Assembly: GCF_900176375.1 (NCBI RefSeq)
Contig: NZ_FWYF01000002.1
Coordinates: 346,161 to 410,160, forward strand
Direction: 5' to 3'
Length of the DNA: 64,000 bases
DNA from: Reichenbachiella faecimaris
GTDB taxonomy: Bacteria; Bacteroidota; Bacteroidia; Cytophagales; Cyclobacteriaceae
Part shown: positions 51,002 through 56,007 of the stretch, in pieces
How positions within the stretch are numbered: position 1 is the stretch's first letter
Layout: every line of letters starts with the position of its first letter
Made by a program: the position numbers and the translations under genes
Notes under the pieces: generated by a model
Database searches by the model: none
What the model was told of the DNA's origin: nothing
The model's input: the letters and a program-made list of their open reading frames with translations, nothing else

Positions 51002-51436
51002 ATGGACAGTAGGGTCAGACATATCACAAAATCAGTTACTTGGCGCATCATCGCATCTGCGACAACTTTTTCTCTTACTTTAGCCTTTTTTGGTAAGGCA
51101 GAACTAGCGATGGCTTCTTGGCTGACTGCTATAGAAACCTCAGTTAAAATCGTCATCTATTACTTTCATGAAAGAATTTGGTTTAAGCTAAGCACAAATC
51201 TCAATTCAAAAATGAGACACATAGCCAAAGCCTTAACTTGGCGTATCATTGCTTCCGGCACTACTTTTATACTAGCGTTGTTGCTTTTCGGAGGACATGA
51301 TGATGCACTTGAAAAAGCGACTTGGATAGCATTAATAGAATCCATTCTTAAAATGGCATTTTATTACGCACATGAAGAGTTCTGGTATAGGATAAATCTT
51401 GGGTTGGATGATAGACAAAAAGAATCAACACCATGA
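51002..51436 (+). CDS. Tandem DUF2061 membrane protein, leader gene of the sulfate activation block
   Basis: 144 residues made of two DUF2061 repeats (about 5-60 and 68-130). Each begins with RHIxKxxTWRIIASxTTF and ends in an IYYFHERxW or FYYAHEEFW box. Two predicted membrane hairpins result, with one helix pair per repeat. Single and tandem DUF2061 proteins are often next to sulfate activation genes in Bacteroidota and Proteobacteria, but their function is not known; a link with sulfate or sulfite handling is inferred from neighbours. The stop overlaps cysC by 4 bases (ATGA), so translation is coupled. Confidence 0.9.
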   Translation: MDSRVRHITKSVTWRIIASATTFSLTLAFFGKAELAMASWLTAIETSVKIVIYYFHERIWFKLSTNLNSKMRHIAKALTWRIIASGTTFILALLLFGGHDDALEKATWIALIESILKMAFYYAHEEFWYRINLGLDDRQKESTP

Positions 51437-52062
51437 CTAAAAATATAATCCCACATGATCACACCGTCAAGCAGGCTGATAGAATCAAAAGGTTAGGCTA
51501 TCGCCCCATTTTGATATGGTTTGTTGGACTTTCAGGATCTGGGAAATCAACACTCGCTAGTGGGCTAGAAACACGTCTTTTCAATGAAGGAATTAATACT
51601 TACATTTTAGACGGTGATAATATTCGGAGTGGACTTAATAGAGATTTGGATTTTTCAGACGATAGTCGAAAAGAAAATCTTAGGAGAATTACTGAGGTGT
51701 CTAATTTATTTGTTGACGCTGGTACAGTGGTGCTCACGGCCTTCATCACTCCATTCAAAGAAGAGCGTGATAAGGTTCGCAAAATGATGGGTGACAACTA
51801 CGTAGAAGTATTTGTTAATTGCCCACTAGAGGAATGTGAAAAAAGAGATGTAAAAGGGCTATATCAAAAAGCTCGTGAAGGTAAAATTAAAAATTTCACA
51901 GGAATTGATTCACCCTTTGAAGAACCCACATCAGCTGATATAGAAGTGCGCTCTCATCAAATTTCTATTGAAGAAGGCGTTCAACGTATATATGACATTG
52001 TTATTGGAAAAATAAGAAAAGTCAGAAGTCTGGAGTCAGAAGCTGGAAGACTAAAGCCATGA
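51433..52062 (+). CDS. cysC: Adenylylsulfate (APS) kinase
   Basis: 209 residues; the kinase domain ends near residue 195, so the last 14 residues (VRSLESEAGRLKP tail) are extra. It phosphorylates APS at the 3' position to give PAPS. The P-loop is GLSGSGKST near 31-39, DGDNIRSGLNRDL near 58-70 is the APS-binding part, and the RDVKGLYQKAREG segment near 135-147 is present. The tail is encoded by the left arm of the inverted repeat around the first four-helix-bundle gene. The stop overlaps the next start by 4 bases (ATGA). Confidence 0.95.
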   Translation: MTKNIIPHDHTVKQADRIKRLGYRPILIWFVGLSGSGKSTLASGLETRLFNEGINTYILDGDNIRSGLNRDLDFSDDSRKENLRRITEVSNLFVDAGTVVLTAFITPFKEERDKVRKMMGDNYVEVFVNCPLEECEKRDVKGLYQKAREGKIKNFTGIDSPFEEPTSADIEVRSHQISIEEGVQRIYDIVIGKIRKVRSLESEAGRLKP

Positions 52063-52457
52063 AGTTCAAATTTGAAACGTTGTTGATTTGGCAAAAAGCC
52101 ATGGATTTGGGAGAGGAACTAAATGTGTTATCCGAAGCCTTTCCTACAAAGGAAAAATTCAATCTTTCTTCACAAATTTGCAGAGCGGTTGACTCTATTG
52201 CTTTGAATATTTCAGAAGGTTCAATCGGTCAATCTAATGCTGAGTTTAGGAAATTCATGAGTTATTCGATTAGATCGTTAGCCGAAGTAGTTACATGTTT
52301 ACACAAAGCACAAAGAAGAAAATATATTTCCGATGTAGAATTTGAAAAATATTACAGCGATTCATTCAATTTAATGAACATGATGATTGCTTTCAAAAAG
52401 AATATTAAATGAATAAGATGTACATAGACTCCTGACTTAGGTCTTCAGTCTACTGAC
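52021..52457 (+). mobile_element. Candidate element 1: four-helix-bundle gene with inverted repeats
   Basis: Left arm 52021-52056 (GTCAGAAGTCTGGAGTC...) and right arm 52426-52457 are imperfect inverted repeats of one another, with 21 of 32 positions matching by hand alignment. The arms are low-complexity, built of short GTC/GAC and AGA/TCT words. They enclose the four-helix-bundle gene 52059-52412. The left arm lies inside the 3' end of cysC and alters its C-terminus. No target-site duplication or transposase is seen. Mobile status is inferred from layout. Confidence 0.35.
52059..52412 (+). CDS. Four-helix-bundle protein (S23/IVS-encoded family), copy 1
   Basis: 117 residues, the typical size of the TIGR02436/S23 family. 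The N-terminus FETLLIWQKAMDLGEEL and the segment FNLSSQICRAVDSIALNISEGS near 36-57 are characteristic. Relatives are encoded by intervening sequences in 23S rRNA genes of Leptospira and Coxiella, and the diversity-generating-retroelement accessory protein Avd has the same fold. The bundle forms a pentamer in some members and binds nucleic acids. Here it lies between cysC and cysD with its ATG inside the cysC stop. It differs clearly from copy 2 in sequence, so the two are not recent duplicates. Confidence 0.92.
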   Translation: MKFKFETLLIWQKAMDLGEELNVLSEAFPTKEKFNLSSQICRAVDSIALNISEGSIGQSNAEFRKFMSYSIRSLAEVVTCLHKAQRRKYISDVEFEKYYSDSFNLMNMMIAFKKNIK

Positions 52458-52482
52458 AATTAAATAAATGATTAGTTAAACT

Positions 52483-53388
52483 ATGTCAAACTATAATCTC
52501 ACACACATCAAAGAACTTGAAGCGGAGGCAATATATATCCTAAGGGAGGTTTTTGCACAATTCGAGAACCCTGCCATCTTATTCTCAGGCGGCAAAGATT
52601 CAATTTGCGTGGCTCATTTGGCAAGAAAAGCATTTTTTCCCTCAAAAATCCCCTTTCCATTCGTTCATGTAGATACGGGCCACAATTTTCCAGAGACTAT
52701 GGACTTTAGAAATAAATACGTGGAAGAGCTCGGCGTAAAACTCATTGTAGGATCAGTTCAAAAGTCTATAGATGATGGAGCCGCCGCGGAAGAAAAAGGA
52801 AAAAATGCAAATCGAAATGCCATTCAAACAGTTACTCTTTTAGACACAATAGAAGAATATGGATTTGATGCTTGTATTGGTGGTGCAAGACGTGATGAGG
52901 AAAAAGCCAGAGCAAAAGAGCGCTTCTTCTCTCATCGTGATGAATTTGGACAATGGGATCCAAAAAATCAAAGGCCTGAGCTTTGGAATATTTTCAACGG
53001 CAGATGTCACCAAGGAGAAAATTTCAGAGTTTTCCCATTGAGCAACTGGACAGAGATGGATGTCTGGCAATATATTCTATCAGAAAACATTGCACTTCCT
53101 AGTCTCTATTTCGCACACGAAAGACAAGTCATTAGAAGAAACAACACTTGGTTGCCTGTTTCAGATTATATACAGATAGCAGAAGACGAAGAAATAGTAA
53201 CTAAGAAGATTAGATTCAGAACATTAGGAGATATAACTATCACTGGTGGTGATGAGTCTGATGCGGATACGCTTGAAAAAATTGTTGATGAAGTCGCTTC
53301 AGCTAGACAAACTGAACGGGGCAATCGAGAAGATGACAAGCGATCGGAAACTTCAATGGAAGACAGAAAAAAACAAGGATATTTTTAG
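52483..53388 (+). CDS. cysD: Sulfate adenylyltransferase subunit 2
   Basis: 301 residues, normal length. It is the catalytic ATP-pyrophosphatase part of the ATP sulfurylase heterodimer, making APS from sulfate and ATP. The PP-loop is LFSGGKDS near 34-41, and the ARRDEEKARAKER segment near 130 and NGRCHQGENFRVFPLSNWTE near 165-185 match CysD. Between cysC and this gene sit the four-helix-bundle gene and its right repeat arm. The downstream partner cysN is separated by the second four-helix-bundle gene. Confidence 0.97.
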   Translation: MSNYNLTHIKELEAEAIYILREVFAQFENPAILFSGGKDSICVAHLARKAFFPSKIPFPFVHVDTGHNFPETMDFRNKYVEELGVKLIVGSVQKSIDDGAAAEEKGKNANRNAIQTVTLLDTIEEYGFDACIGGARRDEEKARAKERFFSHRDEFGQWDPKNQRPELWNIFNGRCHQGENFRVFPLSNWTEMDVWQYILSENIALPSLYFAHERQVIRRNNTWLPVSDYIQIAEDEEIVTKKIRFRTLGDITITGGDESDADTLEKIVDEVASARQTERGNREDDKRSETSMEDRKKQGYF

Positions 53389-53410
53389 AGAATTAACAAG
53401 AACTCTTAAC

Positions 53411-53801
53411 ATTGACCATTAACTAAAGTGAGGGATTATACTAAATATCAAGTTTGGACTGATGCTGTAGAATTTACGGTTAAAATTTATACACTGACTA
53501 AATCATTCCCTTCTGATGAGAAGTATGGATTAATTTCCCAAATGAGACGAGCTTCGGTATCGATTTCTTCTAATATTGCTGAAGGAGCCAGCAGAACTTC
53601 TGAAAAAGAATTCTCAAGATTTATTGAAATTTCTTTGGGGTCGGCCTTCGAGTTAAAAACACATATGATAGTGGCTGAAAAATTAGCCTATTTAGATAAA
53701 GAAGTTTTTGATAAGACCATACCTGAGTTGAATGAAATATGTAAACAATTGAACGGATTGCGTAATTCACTAAAGAAATAAGTTAATAGCTAATGGTCAA
53801 T
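53411..53801 (+). mobile_element. Candidate element 2: four-helix-bundle gene with inverted repeats
   Basis: Left arm 53411-53425 (ATTGACCATTAACTA) and right arm 53787-53801 (TAGCTAATGGTCAAT) match at 14 of 15 positions in inverted orientation, inside longer low-complexity arms of TTAAC/GTTAA words. They enclose the gene 53428-53781. The arms differ in sequence from those of element 1 but have the same low-complexity, repeated-word style. No transposase or direct target repeat is seen. Confidence 0.38.
53428..53781 (+). CDS. Four-helix-bundle protein (S23/IVS-encoded family), copy 2
   Basis: 117 residues from a GTG start; the frame gives the family N-terminus RDYTKYQVWTDAVEFTVKIY. The most conserved segment, YGLISQMRRASVSISSNIAEGASR, is near 35-58. 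It has the same length as copy 1 but only the family core in common, and belongs to a different subgroup (the KxxVWxxA type). The gene is located between cysD and cysN in a 450-base insertion; the genes on both sides are complete. Function unknown; binding of RNA or a protein partner is suggested by the family. Confidence 0.9.
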   Translation: MRDYTKYQVWTDAVEFTVKIYTLTKSFPSDEKYGLISQMRRASVSISSNIAEGASRTSEKEFSRFIEISLGSAFELKTHMIVAEKLAYLDKEVFDKTIPELNEICKQLNGLRNSLKK

Positions 53802-53841
53802 AGTTACGGTTGAACATGAAAATTGAAAAACTCTGCAAATT

Positions 53842-55134
53842 ATGACAGAACAGAATAATATCACTCCCCACGACAACAAAGGCTACCTCGACATGGAACT
53901 TCTTCGTTTTACTACAGCAGGTAGTGTAGACGATGGTAAGAGCACATTGATTGGTCGCTTACTCTATGATTCAAAATCGATCTTTGAAGATCAAATGGAT
54001 CAAGTGGCTAAATCCAGTGAAAGAAAGGGGTTAGAACATACAGACTTGGCCTTGCTTACGGATGGACTAAAAGACGAGCGCGAACAAGGGATTACCATTG
54101 ATGTCGCCTATAGATACTTTGCAACACCTAAAAGAAAATTTATTATTGCCGACACCCCCGGCCATATTCAATATACACGGAATATGGTGACAGGTGCTTC
54201 TACAGCTAACTGTGCTTTACTATTAGTAGATGCTCGAAAAGGTGTGATCGAACAAACACAAAGGCACTCAATCATTGCTTCGCTTTTACAAATCCCCCAT
54301 GTGGTTGTTTGTGTCAACAAGATGGACTTAGTCGATTACAGTCAAGAAGTCTTTGGAAAAATCAAAGAGGAATATGAGGCATTCGCATCTAAGTTGGAAG
54401 TAAAAGATATCCGCTTCATTCCCATCTCAGCTTTGAATGGTGACAATGTGGTGAATAGAAGTGAGAATATGTCTTGGTATGAGGGATCTACTCTTCTTTA
54501 TACCTTAGAAAACATCCATATAGGAAGTGATCACAATCATATCGATTGTAGGTTCCCAGTACAAACAGTCATTCGACCAAAAAATGACAAGTATCATGAT
54601 TATCGCGGATATGCAGGACGAATTGCCAGTGGCGTATTCAAACCAGGTGATGAGGTAACAGTTATTCCTTCTGGCTTCAGTTCAAAAATTAAATCTATTG
54701 ATACATTCAATGGTGAACTGGAAGAAGCTTTTGCTCCAATGTCTGTTTCCATTCAACTAGAAGATGAAATTGATATTGGACGCGGAGACATGATTGTTCG
54801 AACAAATAATAAGCCTGAACCCATTCAGGATATCGAGGCTATGATCTGCTGGCTAAATCCTCAAGGACCAAGACCTAGAGCAAAATACATCCTTAGACAC
54901 ACTACAGCTGAAACTAAGACGATGATCAAAGAAATCTGCTATAAACTCGACATTAGTACGCTTCATAGAAACGAAGAAGATAAGGAGATCAAAGCGAATG
55001 ACATTTGTAAAATGAAATTGCGAACAACCAAGCCATTGCTGGCAGACTCTTACAAGAAAAATAGAATAACAGGAAGTCTAATTCTTGTAGATGAAGCTAC
55101 TAATGAAACTGTAGCTGCAGGAATGATTGTTTAA
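53842..55134 (+). CDS. cysN: Sulfate adenylyltransferase subunit 1
   Basis: 430 residues: the GTPase subunit without the C-terminal CysC fusion found in some bacteria. Signatures are GSVDDGKSTLIGRLLYD near 27-43 (G1), DTPGH near 99 (G3), and NKMD near 154 (G4). GTP hydrolysis drives APS formation by CysD. It is separated from cysD by the second four-helix-bundle element. The downstream gap to cysQ is 99 bases and holds a further inverted repeat. Confidence 0.97.
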   Translation: MTEQNNITPHDNKGYLDMELLRFTTAGSVDDGKSTLIGRLLYDSKSIFEDQMDQVAKSSERKGLEHTDLALLTDGLKDEREQGITIDVAYRYFATPKRKFIIADTPGHIQYTRNMVTGASTANCALLLVDARKGVIEQTQRHSIIASLLQIPHVVVCVNKMDLVDYSQEVFGKIKEEYEAFASKLEVKDIRFIPISALNGDNVVNRSENMSWYEGSTLLYTLENIHIGSDHNHIDCRFPVQTVIRPKNDKYHDYRGYAGRIASGVFKPGDEVTVIPSGFSSKIKSIDTFNGELEEAFAPMSVSIQLEDEIDIGRGDMIVRTNNKPEPIQDIEAMICWLNPQGPRPRAKYILRHTTAETKTMIKEICYKLDISTLHRNEEDKEIKANDICKMKLRTTKPLLADSYKKNRITGSLILVDEATNETVAAGMIV

Positions 55135-55143
55135 AAAAACACT

Positions 55144-55230
55144 AACCTTTAACATTAACCGTTGAATTCAACCAAATACGAATTGGTTCGAAAATCATAA
55201 GTTAAAGGTCAACGGTTAAAAGTTAATGTT
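55144..55230. repeat. Inverted repeat between cysN and cysQ without a gene
   Basis: TTAACCGTTGA (55155-55165) and TCAACGGTTAA (55209-55219) are perfectly complementary, and CCTTTAAC (55146-55153) pairs with GTTAAAGG (55201-55208) nearby; inner arms AACCAA (55170-55175) and TTGGTT (55183-55188) form a further stem. The words (TTAAC, GTTAA) are those seen in the arms of element 2. No ORF is enclosed. It may be a solo or deleted form of the same element. Confidence 0.45.
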
Positions 55231-55233
55231 ACA

Positions 55234-56007
55234 ATGGATTTACAACCACAACTTGAAGTAGCCAAGATAGCTGCCAAAAAAGCCGCACAAGAAATTCTCA
55301 AGATTTATGAAAGTGGCGATTTTTCAATAGAAGCAAAAGCGGATAACTCTCCCTTAACAAAAGCAGATCGAGCCGCACATTTGGCAATTGTTGCTGAATT
55401 AGAAAAAACCAACTTGCCAATATTGAGCGAAGAAGGTCGAGATATTTCATATGAAGAACGAAAAGACTGGGAATATTTCTGGATGATTGATCCTTTGGAT
55501 GGCACTAAAGAATTCATCAAAAGGAATGGCGAGTTTACAGTCAATATTGCTCTTATCCATAAAAACCAACCTATACTCGGTGTGGTGCAGGTGCCTGTGA
55601 CTCGAAAGTTATACTATGCTTCGGAAGGTGAAGGTTCATTTGTGATCTCCGAAGAAGGGAGTCAAAGGTTAAAGGTTAATGGTAAAAAGTTATCAGAAAA
55701 AGGAATGAAAATTGTTGCTTCCAGATCACACCTGAATGAAGATACAGAGAAATTTATGAGCCAGTTTAGTAACCCTGAAATTGTAAGTATGGGAAGTTCA
55801 TTGAAATTGCTAGCTGTAGCAGAAGGATTGGCTGATCTTTACCCTCGTTTCGCACCAACTATGGAATGGGATACTGCCGCTGCACATGCCATCGTTACAG
55901 AAGCAGGAGGTACGGTCTCAATAAAAGAAAGCAATCAATCCGTTCACTACAATAAACCTAACTTACTGAACCCACATTTTCTTGTTAGCGGTAGCATCAC
56001 AATGTAG
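55234..56007 (+). CDS. cysQ: 3'(2'),5'-bisphosphate nucleotidase (PAP phosphatase)
   Basis: 257 residues, the family length. It degrades PAP, the by-product of sulfotransferases, to AMP. The inositol-monophosphatase-type metal motif is DPLDGTKEFI near 89-98, and EWDTAAAHAI near 214-223 is the second motif. It completes the block and is the gene expected when PAPS is used by sulfotransferases. Inside the gene, 55660-55692 contains a run of TTAA/GGTTAA words like those in the intergenic arms, but the protein length is normal and the frame is intact. Confidence 0.95.
   Translation: MDLQPQLEVAKIAAKKAAQEILKIYESGDFSIEAKADNSPLTKADRAAHLAIVAELEKTNLPILSEEGRDISYEERKDWEYFWMIDPLDGTKEFIKRNGEFTVNIALIHKNQPILGVVQVPVTRKLYYASEGEGSFVISEEGSQRLKVNGKKLSEKGMKIVASRSHLNEDTEKFMSQFSNPEIVSMGSSLKLLAVAEGLADLYPRFAPTMEWDTAAAHAIVTEAGGTVSIKESNQSVHYNKPNLLNPHFLVSGSITM

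Follow-up and report, generated by a model that had tools for sequence, protein, structure and literature searches.

Small S23-protein genes between heptamer arrays: a probable class of mobile elements in bacterial operons related to the intervening sequences of 23S rRNA

The sulfate-activation operon of Reichenbachiella faecimaris carries two small genes of the S23 family (S23/IVP), one between cysC and cysD and the other between cysD and cysN. Both lie in a stretch of 64,000 nucleotides (contig NZ_FWYF01000002.1, positions 346,161 to 410,160), which is called the window hereafter, and genes of the same family are found in the intervening sequences (IVS) of 23S rRNA. Our comparison of the two copies with related loci in other bacteria makes it probable that each S23 gene forms, together with the two arms that flank it, one small mobile element of about 450 nt, an IVS-type element which lives in operons. 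This reading is carried by the anatomy of the loci, a seven-nucleotide period in the flanks of S23 genes, the complementarity of the arms as a property of the class, the presence, absence and exchange of units among relatives, the covariation of S23 type and arm motif and a low ratio of nonsynonymous to synonymous substitution (dN/dS) in three ortholog pairs.

Copy 1 (52059..52412, plus strand) begins with ATG and copy 2 (53428..53781, plus strand) with GTG. An earlier note, made from the sequence alone, had placed two 117-residue members of the S23/IVS family at these joints, and both copies indeed encode 117 residues and exceed the cut-offs of TIGR02436 and PF05635 (102.1 bits for copy 1 and 132.6 bits for copy 2, cut-off 33.8). 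The same note called the copies unrelated-looking, which was too strong: they are divergent but related, with 34% identity over 88 residues (E 5e-16). Among named organisms, the top match to copy 2 came from Reichenbachiella at 67% identity. For copy 2 there are also two solved relatives, 2gsc (E 4.7e-23) and 2rld (E 5.3e-5), with five chains each, and 2gsc is a homopentamer according to PMC4990558. Element 1 has its left arm at 51990..52056 and its right arm at 52416..52467 (both plus strand); the partner in the duplex is 51990-52038, and the outer part of the left arm is coding sequence of cysC (adenylyl-sulfate kinase, 51433..52062, plus strand). The profile match of cysC ends at residue 190 of 209, its last ~19 codons extend into the left arm, the arm provides its stop codon and the start of copy 1 overlaps that stop (ATGA). 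Element 2 consists of a left arm at 53361..53426, with the best-paired core at 53411-53425 and the end of cysD (52483..53388, plus strand, by profile) as its outer pairing part, copy 2 and a right arm at 53786..53837, again all on the plus strand. The arms had been described as of low complexity, for which heptamer quasi-repeats is the better term; in the left arm of element 1 they run at about 52018-52052 as aagtcag/aagtctg/gagtcag/aagctgg/aagact, with 14/21 positions matching at lag 7.

Complementarity, which had been counted by hand as 21 of 32 positions around copy 1 and 14 of 15 around copy 2, was exact on recount. When the 70-nt flanks are paired as RNA with G-U allowed, the duplex energy is -28.4 kcal for copy 1 and -23.5 kcal for copy 2, values reached by 9/1000 and 1/1000 shuffles, respectively, and chance pairing was rejected for both copies by these shuffles. 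Folds of the whole elements join the arms by 31 pairs in copy 1 and 30 in copy 2. With a gapped local-alignment score that does not allow G-U, copy 1 is weaker (15/200 shuffles as good) and copy 2 is not equalled (0/200). The genome of the window, designated G000, contains eight S23 genes, and by the same score, with four of the eight loci in the correct orientation, only L002, L004 and L007 are matched by at most 1/200 shuffles (L001 and L003 were not oriented in this test), so that single loci vary.

The wider sample comprised 207 S23 genes, namely 30 from the genus, 92 from the family and 85 from a broad set; these remained from 237 profile hits after 13 partial hits, duplicates, genes with a flank shorter than 110 nt and N-containing sequences were removed. 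In the genus, 33 loci were fetched and 31 used, because L015 and L030 were divergent or fragmentary; the family loci came from 29 regions (one per genome) and 60 regions chosen from among the matches listed, and the broad set has 85 genes from 80 named loci among 502 relatives of copy 2. Since rows with stops or contig ends were mostly skipped, the sample is non-random and biased to well-scoring S23 genes. In the 31 genus loci, matched arms have a mean complementarity of 26.0, whereas arms swapped between loci have 16.1. Matched arms surpass the swapped-arm 95th percentile in 19/30 genus, 51/92 family and 58/85 broad loci, and control flanks from further out do so in only 0/29, 3/92 and 0/79. 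Chance pairing in the class as a whole was rejected by these swapped-arm and outer-flank controls, and the comparison with chance that the earlier note had asked for came out in favour of paired arms. By phylum, the broad loci over the threshold are 34/53 in Bacteroidota, 7/7 in Balneolota, 4/5 in Ignavibacteriota, 3/3 in Campylobacterota, 2/3 in Omnitrophota, 2/2 in Pseudomonadota, 1/2 in Chloroflexota and 1/2 in Planctomycetota; of eight groups with a single gene, four are over it (Nomurabacteria, Campbellbacteria, Thermodesulfobacteriota and Melainabacteria) and four are not. On cyanobacterial plasmids 6/10 loci exceed it. Because many loci fall under the threshold, with clear negatives in the genus (L025, L022, L011) and on plasmids (L303, L304, L306), complementarity is regarded as a property of the class and not of each locus.

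The arms have a common period in addition to their pairing. The flanks of the 31 genus loci match themselves with z 13.5 at lag 7, 9.0 at lag 14 and 6.6 at lag 21, while every other lag from 2 to 21 stays at z 2.5 or less. In the pooled 207 genes the lag-7 match is 0.35-0.39 in all three groups versus 0.24-0.26 in control flanks taken about 450 nt farther away, and the ten cyanobacterial plasmid loci show the strongest period (0.466); the single S23 gene from Kerfeldbacteria has no 7-nt period. The signal begins at the upstream stop codon, peaks directly after it and has a second peak some 15-40 nt upstream of the start codon of the following gene. Among 119 co-directional S23-free spacers in 464 kb of G000 (the window plus 20 stretches, about 14 kb being counted twice and S23 loci excluded) the lag-7 match is 0.286, with no excess. 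A blind array scan that used only lag 7 gave 40 segments, including two masked N stretches and one duplicate, versus 27 after shuffling, and was rejected as too noisy to be used alone. Stops in all three frames occur in 66/169 left arms versus 22% in shuffles, but any stop-bearing 7-nt repeat gives stops in all frames and a three-frame stop device therefore receives little weight. Two elements at the metH/metF joint have long arrays in the flanks of S23; L028 has an 8-nt unit, tggtctgc, and L032 has self-complementary arrays on either side of the gene.

In placement, 188/201 S23 genes with two called neighbours are co-directional with both, compared with 179/335 ORF (open reading frame) triples in G000, and 13/201 are not. 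The joints that recur are 3-hydroxyacyl-CoA dehydrogenase/thiolase (32), thiolase/next gene (19), odhB/lpd (11), metH/metF (7), cysD/cysN (5) and others, and the host operons (cys, suf, met, leu, odh, fad, paa) are functionally unrelated. Neighbour names were checked by profile for cysC, cysD, cysN, cysQ, thiolase, odhB, the FadB-like dehydrogenase, sufB, sufC, metH, metF, leuC, PaaZ, PaaY and lpd; those of leuD, acyl-CoA dehydrogenase, trpE/trpG, thrB/thrC, argC and pyrF were assigned by sequence reading alone. A plasmid collection gave 22 records matching S23, of which the 12 among the matches listed are all cyanobacterial; 10 were analysed, and at these loci, whose gene table is incomplete, S23 is co-directional with both annotated neighbours in six, antisense to both in three and mixed in one. 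In the three antisense loci (L302, L304, L307) the neighbours are co-directional with each other, and because of such loci the sense bias is not absolute. The earlier idea of an IVS-like class of elements at operon joints therefore holds as far as an S23 ORF with complementary arms at such places is concerned, and the setting between co-directional genes has to be softened to a strong bias. Loci L303 and L311 have S23 between cas6 and cas4 in the CRISPR operons of two cyanobacterial plasmids, and L303 has long direct heptamer arrays, agctaaa on the left and agccaaa on the right.

Turnover of the units at individual joints is well supported. The same joints in relatives had been set beforehand as a test able to overturn the element model, and the model came through it. 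Among eight genomes of the genus, the cysC/cysD joint is full in G000 and G005, has been reduced by deletion to a remnant in G003 and G002 and is without insert in G001, G004, G006 and G007; in the insert-free relatives cysC stops earlier and overlaps cysD by ATGA (G001, G004, G007) or nearly touches it (G006). The cysD/cysN joint is full in G000, G005, G001 and G004; G003 retains a remnant and G002 possibly a trace, and G006 and G007 have no insert (remnants at the cys joints were judged by eye). Between fadJ and thiolase five genomes have 413-434 nt, and G005 and G003 have some 40 nt. The odhB/lpd joint is full in five genomes, with an apparent remnant of 340 nt in G003; G006 has a hairpin of 77 nt that lacks S23 there, and in G007 the two genes are 25 nt apart. 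At pyrF/peptidase the S23 gene is shortened in G004, internally deleted but still accompanied by arms in G002 and absent from G001 (G006 being outside this comparison). Broken S23 copies are common. In three of 11 same-joint pairs dN/dS is 0.06, 0.04 and 0.12 (dS 1.0 to 2.7, rough values), from which it follows that the S23 protein is kept while the units last; among the other eight pairs dS is saturated in seven and one pair is nearly identical.

Exchange of units is seen most clearly between G001 and G004, whose cysD, thiolase and lpd genes taken together are 98.1% identical. At odhB/lpd their flanks, leaving aside the ends of the compared stretch, are 97-100% identical up to the stop codon and from the start codon, and the interval between is 44-68% identical; at cysD/cysN, flanks of at least 900 nt are 86-100% identical with 48-72% between, and the first cysN codons also differ. 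The same two genomes agree throughout at fadJ/thiolase (91-100%) and at leuC/leuD (91-100% where both are covered). In a tree made from a short and weakly resolved alignment, the odhB/lpd unit of G001 groups with G000/G005 (support 85) and that of G004 with G002 (99). A second genus (11 genomes, 28/30 loci usable, 91 same-joint pairs) has the same exchange pattern: in L282 versus L284 and L285 versus L290 the flanks are 88-89% identical with S23 identity of 0.68/0.56 and arm similarity of 30/27, and at a neighbouring joint of the same genomes these are 0.96/0.99 and 203/186. In L284, with S23 read forward, a stretch at about 1385-1425 resembles by eye the left arm of the other type and lies upstream of the resident arm; it is possibly a record of replacement.

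The linkage of S23 type and arm motif is likewise well supported. Arm make-up differs among close species and among the eight G000 copies, and the constant terminal inverted repeats by which insertion sequences (IS) and miniature inverted-repeat transposable elements (MITEs) are recognized are absent. S23 pairs from different joints with at least 60% S23 identity (n=46) have an arm similarity of 34.6 versus 26.9 after permutation (sd 1.1, max 33.3; 0/1000 as high), which is a strong sign and not an exact probability because pairs share loci and the permutation ignores relatedness. Arrays without an S23 gene also bear the motif of a resident one. At the cysN/cysQ joint of the window, in addition to what the earlier note had described, there is an S23-less or solo heptamer hairpin (55137..55232, plus strand; fold z -3.18, 0/200 shuffles as good), whose heptamers look by eye like those of the element 2 arms. 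Judged by eye, the S23-less hairpins at this joint share the motif of the genome's own cysD/cysN unit in G004, where this is clearest, and in G000 and G005; G003 has one beside only a remnant, G001 a short one, G007 a terminator-like one and G002 and G006 none. Among other same-strand spacers, 18/138 are closer to the S23 arms of their own locus than to any of the 30 foreign arms, where 4.5 would be expected, and some of these 18 are decayed S23 units, for example L077. Furthermore, in G077, the genome of L164 with five S23 units, the heptamer of one unit occurs as arrays at 34 places, the unit itself included, with 71 matches to the pattern and 0 to a reversed-pattern control; G078, to which this pattern is foreign, gave no match and does not serve as a comparison. 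Several of the G077 arrays (L329-L348) adjoin another heptamer type, gaggggcg, which is similar to the arms of L326, a second S23 unit.

The mechanism that we propose is as follows. The element would consist of an S23 ORF between two degenerate heptamer arrays, the right one being the complement of the left, and would settle in the short spacers of co-transcribed genes, mostly in sense and reaching from the stop codon to the next start. A simple scan gave 7 promoter-like sites versus 6.1 in shuffles, so a promoter or terminator of its own was rejected for lack of excess and the element is taken to be read from the operon. In the RNA the arms may pair with each other to form a hairpin whose loop contains the S23 ORF, and the element may then be excised or tolerated like an IVS; cutting by RNase III, suggested by analogy with the rRNA elements, is rather more plausible than its contrary. 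The S23 protein probably reads the heptamers, acting as a ring on repeated 7-nt units, and to such binding we would give a similarly modest preference. TRAP reads repeats in a comparable way. Heptamer reading by S23 would explain the 7-nt period, the joint change of S23 type and motif and the S23-less arrays with the resident motif. Units would be exchanged between species at the same joint, shrink to solo hairpins through internal deletions and be lost. Exchange confined between codons, together with the S23-less copies, argues for a step driven by the element; transfer presumably takes place at the DNA level, and insertion at the level of mRNA, as the earlier note had it, is conjectural.

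Several observations weigh against this reading. Matched arms stay below the swapped-arm 95th percentile in 11/30 genus, 41/92 family and 27/85 broad loci, and a test by RNA energy is less sharp, with only 10/30, 22/92 and 34/85 below the swapped 5th percentile. The complementarity of L025, the ortholog of copy 1, is matched by 13/30 swaps, and both arrays of L303 are direct and not inverted. The fadJ/thiolase spacer of G007 has 227 nt with no recognisable S23 remnant, no clean target-site duplication was seen by eye between full and empty joints, whose spacers are too diverged, and profile searches gave no nuclease or transposase family that matches S23. Of the 20 G077 places retrieved, three are inverted pairs (the S23 unit included) and the other 17 single arrays, and therefore hairpins are not the only form. 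Moreover, S23 lineages keep their joints: the S23 tree requires 25 joint changes, compared with a minimum of 11 and with 56-65 (mean 60.7) after shuffling, and this fidelity, taken alone, also fits vertical inheritance.

Such fidelity is what would be expected if S23 were a resident, operon-specific RNA-binding ring that attaches to heptamer hairpins at the joints of its operon and tunes translation or decay of the segments, with the arms as its operators and not as ends of an element. The low dN/dS of the three pairs, the five chains of 2gsc and 2rld, the presence of the resident motif in other spacers of the same locus and the overlap of the copy 1 start with the cysC stop, by which translation may be coupled, point in the same direction. 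However, hosts lose S23 and leave remnants and empty joints inside one genus, the occupied operons are functionally unrelated, near-identical genomes show exchange limited to the interval between genes and arrays are spread over the whole genome of G077, so we regard this alternative as unlikely. A passive origin, with arrays made by polymerase slippage, complementarity by template switching and S23 carried along by recombination of operon segments, would agree with the agentless heptameric repeats reported as over-represented in several bacterial genomes (PMC4692102), the variable arm make-up of close species and the varying heptamer number of Coxiella strains (PMC4990558). Yet the period goes with S23 flanks and is missing from ordinary G000 spacers, the arm motif is predicted by S23 lineage across unrelated joints, and exchanged stretches end at stop and start codons with intact flanks, which is unexpected from flank-driven recombination; a passive origin is thus quite improbable. 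Still less credible is a non-autonomous element moved in trans by a standard transposase or reverse transcriptase, although the arms are inverted and the copy 2 protein distantly resembles Avd of diversity-generating retroelements. The protein stays below both cut-offs, reaching 28.9 bits where bAvd requires 40 and 21 where Avd requires 80, the arms differ from copy to copy so that there are no fixed ends, and no PF00078 reverse transcriptase was found in 5/8 genus genomes, including G000 with its eight copies and G001/G004 with exchanged units. Dependence on a reverse transcriptase in the same genome is accordingly not supported, PF00078-free genomes being carriers of copies.

The IVS-type mobile element shares with the IVS of 23S rRNA an S23-family ORF in sense, as in most members of the class, and terminal complementary arms around the ORF, for which a sizeable minority of class loci is negative. 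According to PMC4990558, the Coxiella IVS resembles the present elements in its tandem heptamers directly before the S23 start, a trait taken from the literature for Coxiella alone, in ORF deletions and in a sporadic distribution; it is cut by RNase III in vitro, and horizontal transfer of IVS is suggested there, while their function and origin are termed unclear. In contrast, the window copies lie between cysC, cysD and cysN and not inside 23S rRNA, their arms are less perfect than the 28-bp Coxiella stem and the Coxiella ORF is called expendable in the same text, whereas low dN/dS is seen here in three pairs. Because the rRNA location is lacking, the elements are not filed as 23S IVS, though they are built like one. 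Systems of another kind, REP/RAYT, combine units that encode a protein with many copies of the same motif that encode none. The G077 arrays are likewise protein-less repeats of one motif but differ in that no tyrosine transposase is matched, the protein is a helix bundle and most places are single arrays.

Heptameric repeats with no known agent have been described in several bacteria, and the respective papers report GGGAATC with 70 inverted pairs in one Xanthomonas genome and GGGGATT in Nostoc, both mostly intergenic like the arrays described here (PMC4692102), TAACTGA in Beggiatoaceae, with stop codons noted in all frames (PMC4679880), and 7-nt repeats in Nostoc trnL P6b (PMC4476775). These repeats have in common with the present arrays the 7-nt units, sometimes paired in stems and often situated between aligned ORFs. 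The terms S23 and four helix were not found by term searches of PMC4692102 and PMC4679880. Open full-text literature, outside which most subscription papers fall, gave no account of S23 operon elements or of a link between S23 and heptamers among the matches listed, and where heptameric repeats and intervening sequences were searched for together, PMC4990558 was the single result. Tentatively, and with rather less than even confidence, we suggest that S23/IVP proteins may be the agents behind bacterial heptanucleotide repeats at large, the ring taking roughly one heptamer per subunit and each S23 lineage maintaining and spreading its own arrays, with or without the gene, via operon joints, rRNA, introns and whole genomes. 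If this is true, rRNA IVS, the heptamers of cyanobacteria, Xanthomonas and Beggiatoaceae and the genes at operon joints would be one class, a mobile system without a transposase. The link between S23 and heptamers supplies a candidate agent for intergenic heptamer repeats that were reported without one. Operon-joint elements offer several natural insertions per genome in empty, full, decayed and exchanged states in related species, some of them cultured, so that their mobility, the processing of their RNA and the binding of S23 can be tested directly. Small genes annotated as four helix bundle protein inside operons should not be taken for pathway genes.

As to the rest of the locus, an Rfam search of 51300-55400 gave no match up to E 1, and copy 2 as query gave none in a phage collection at E 1e-4. 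The operon, whose genes were identified by profile as cysC, cysD, cysN and cysQ, continues after element 2 with cysN (53842..55134) and, beyond the solo hairpin, cysQ (55234..56007), both on the plus strand. A heptamer stretch in cysQ at 55656-55701 was considered as an insertion and rejected, since CysQ of the other seven genomes is variable there and of similar length as judged by eye.

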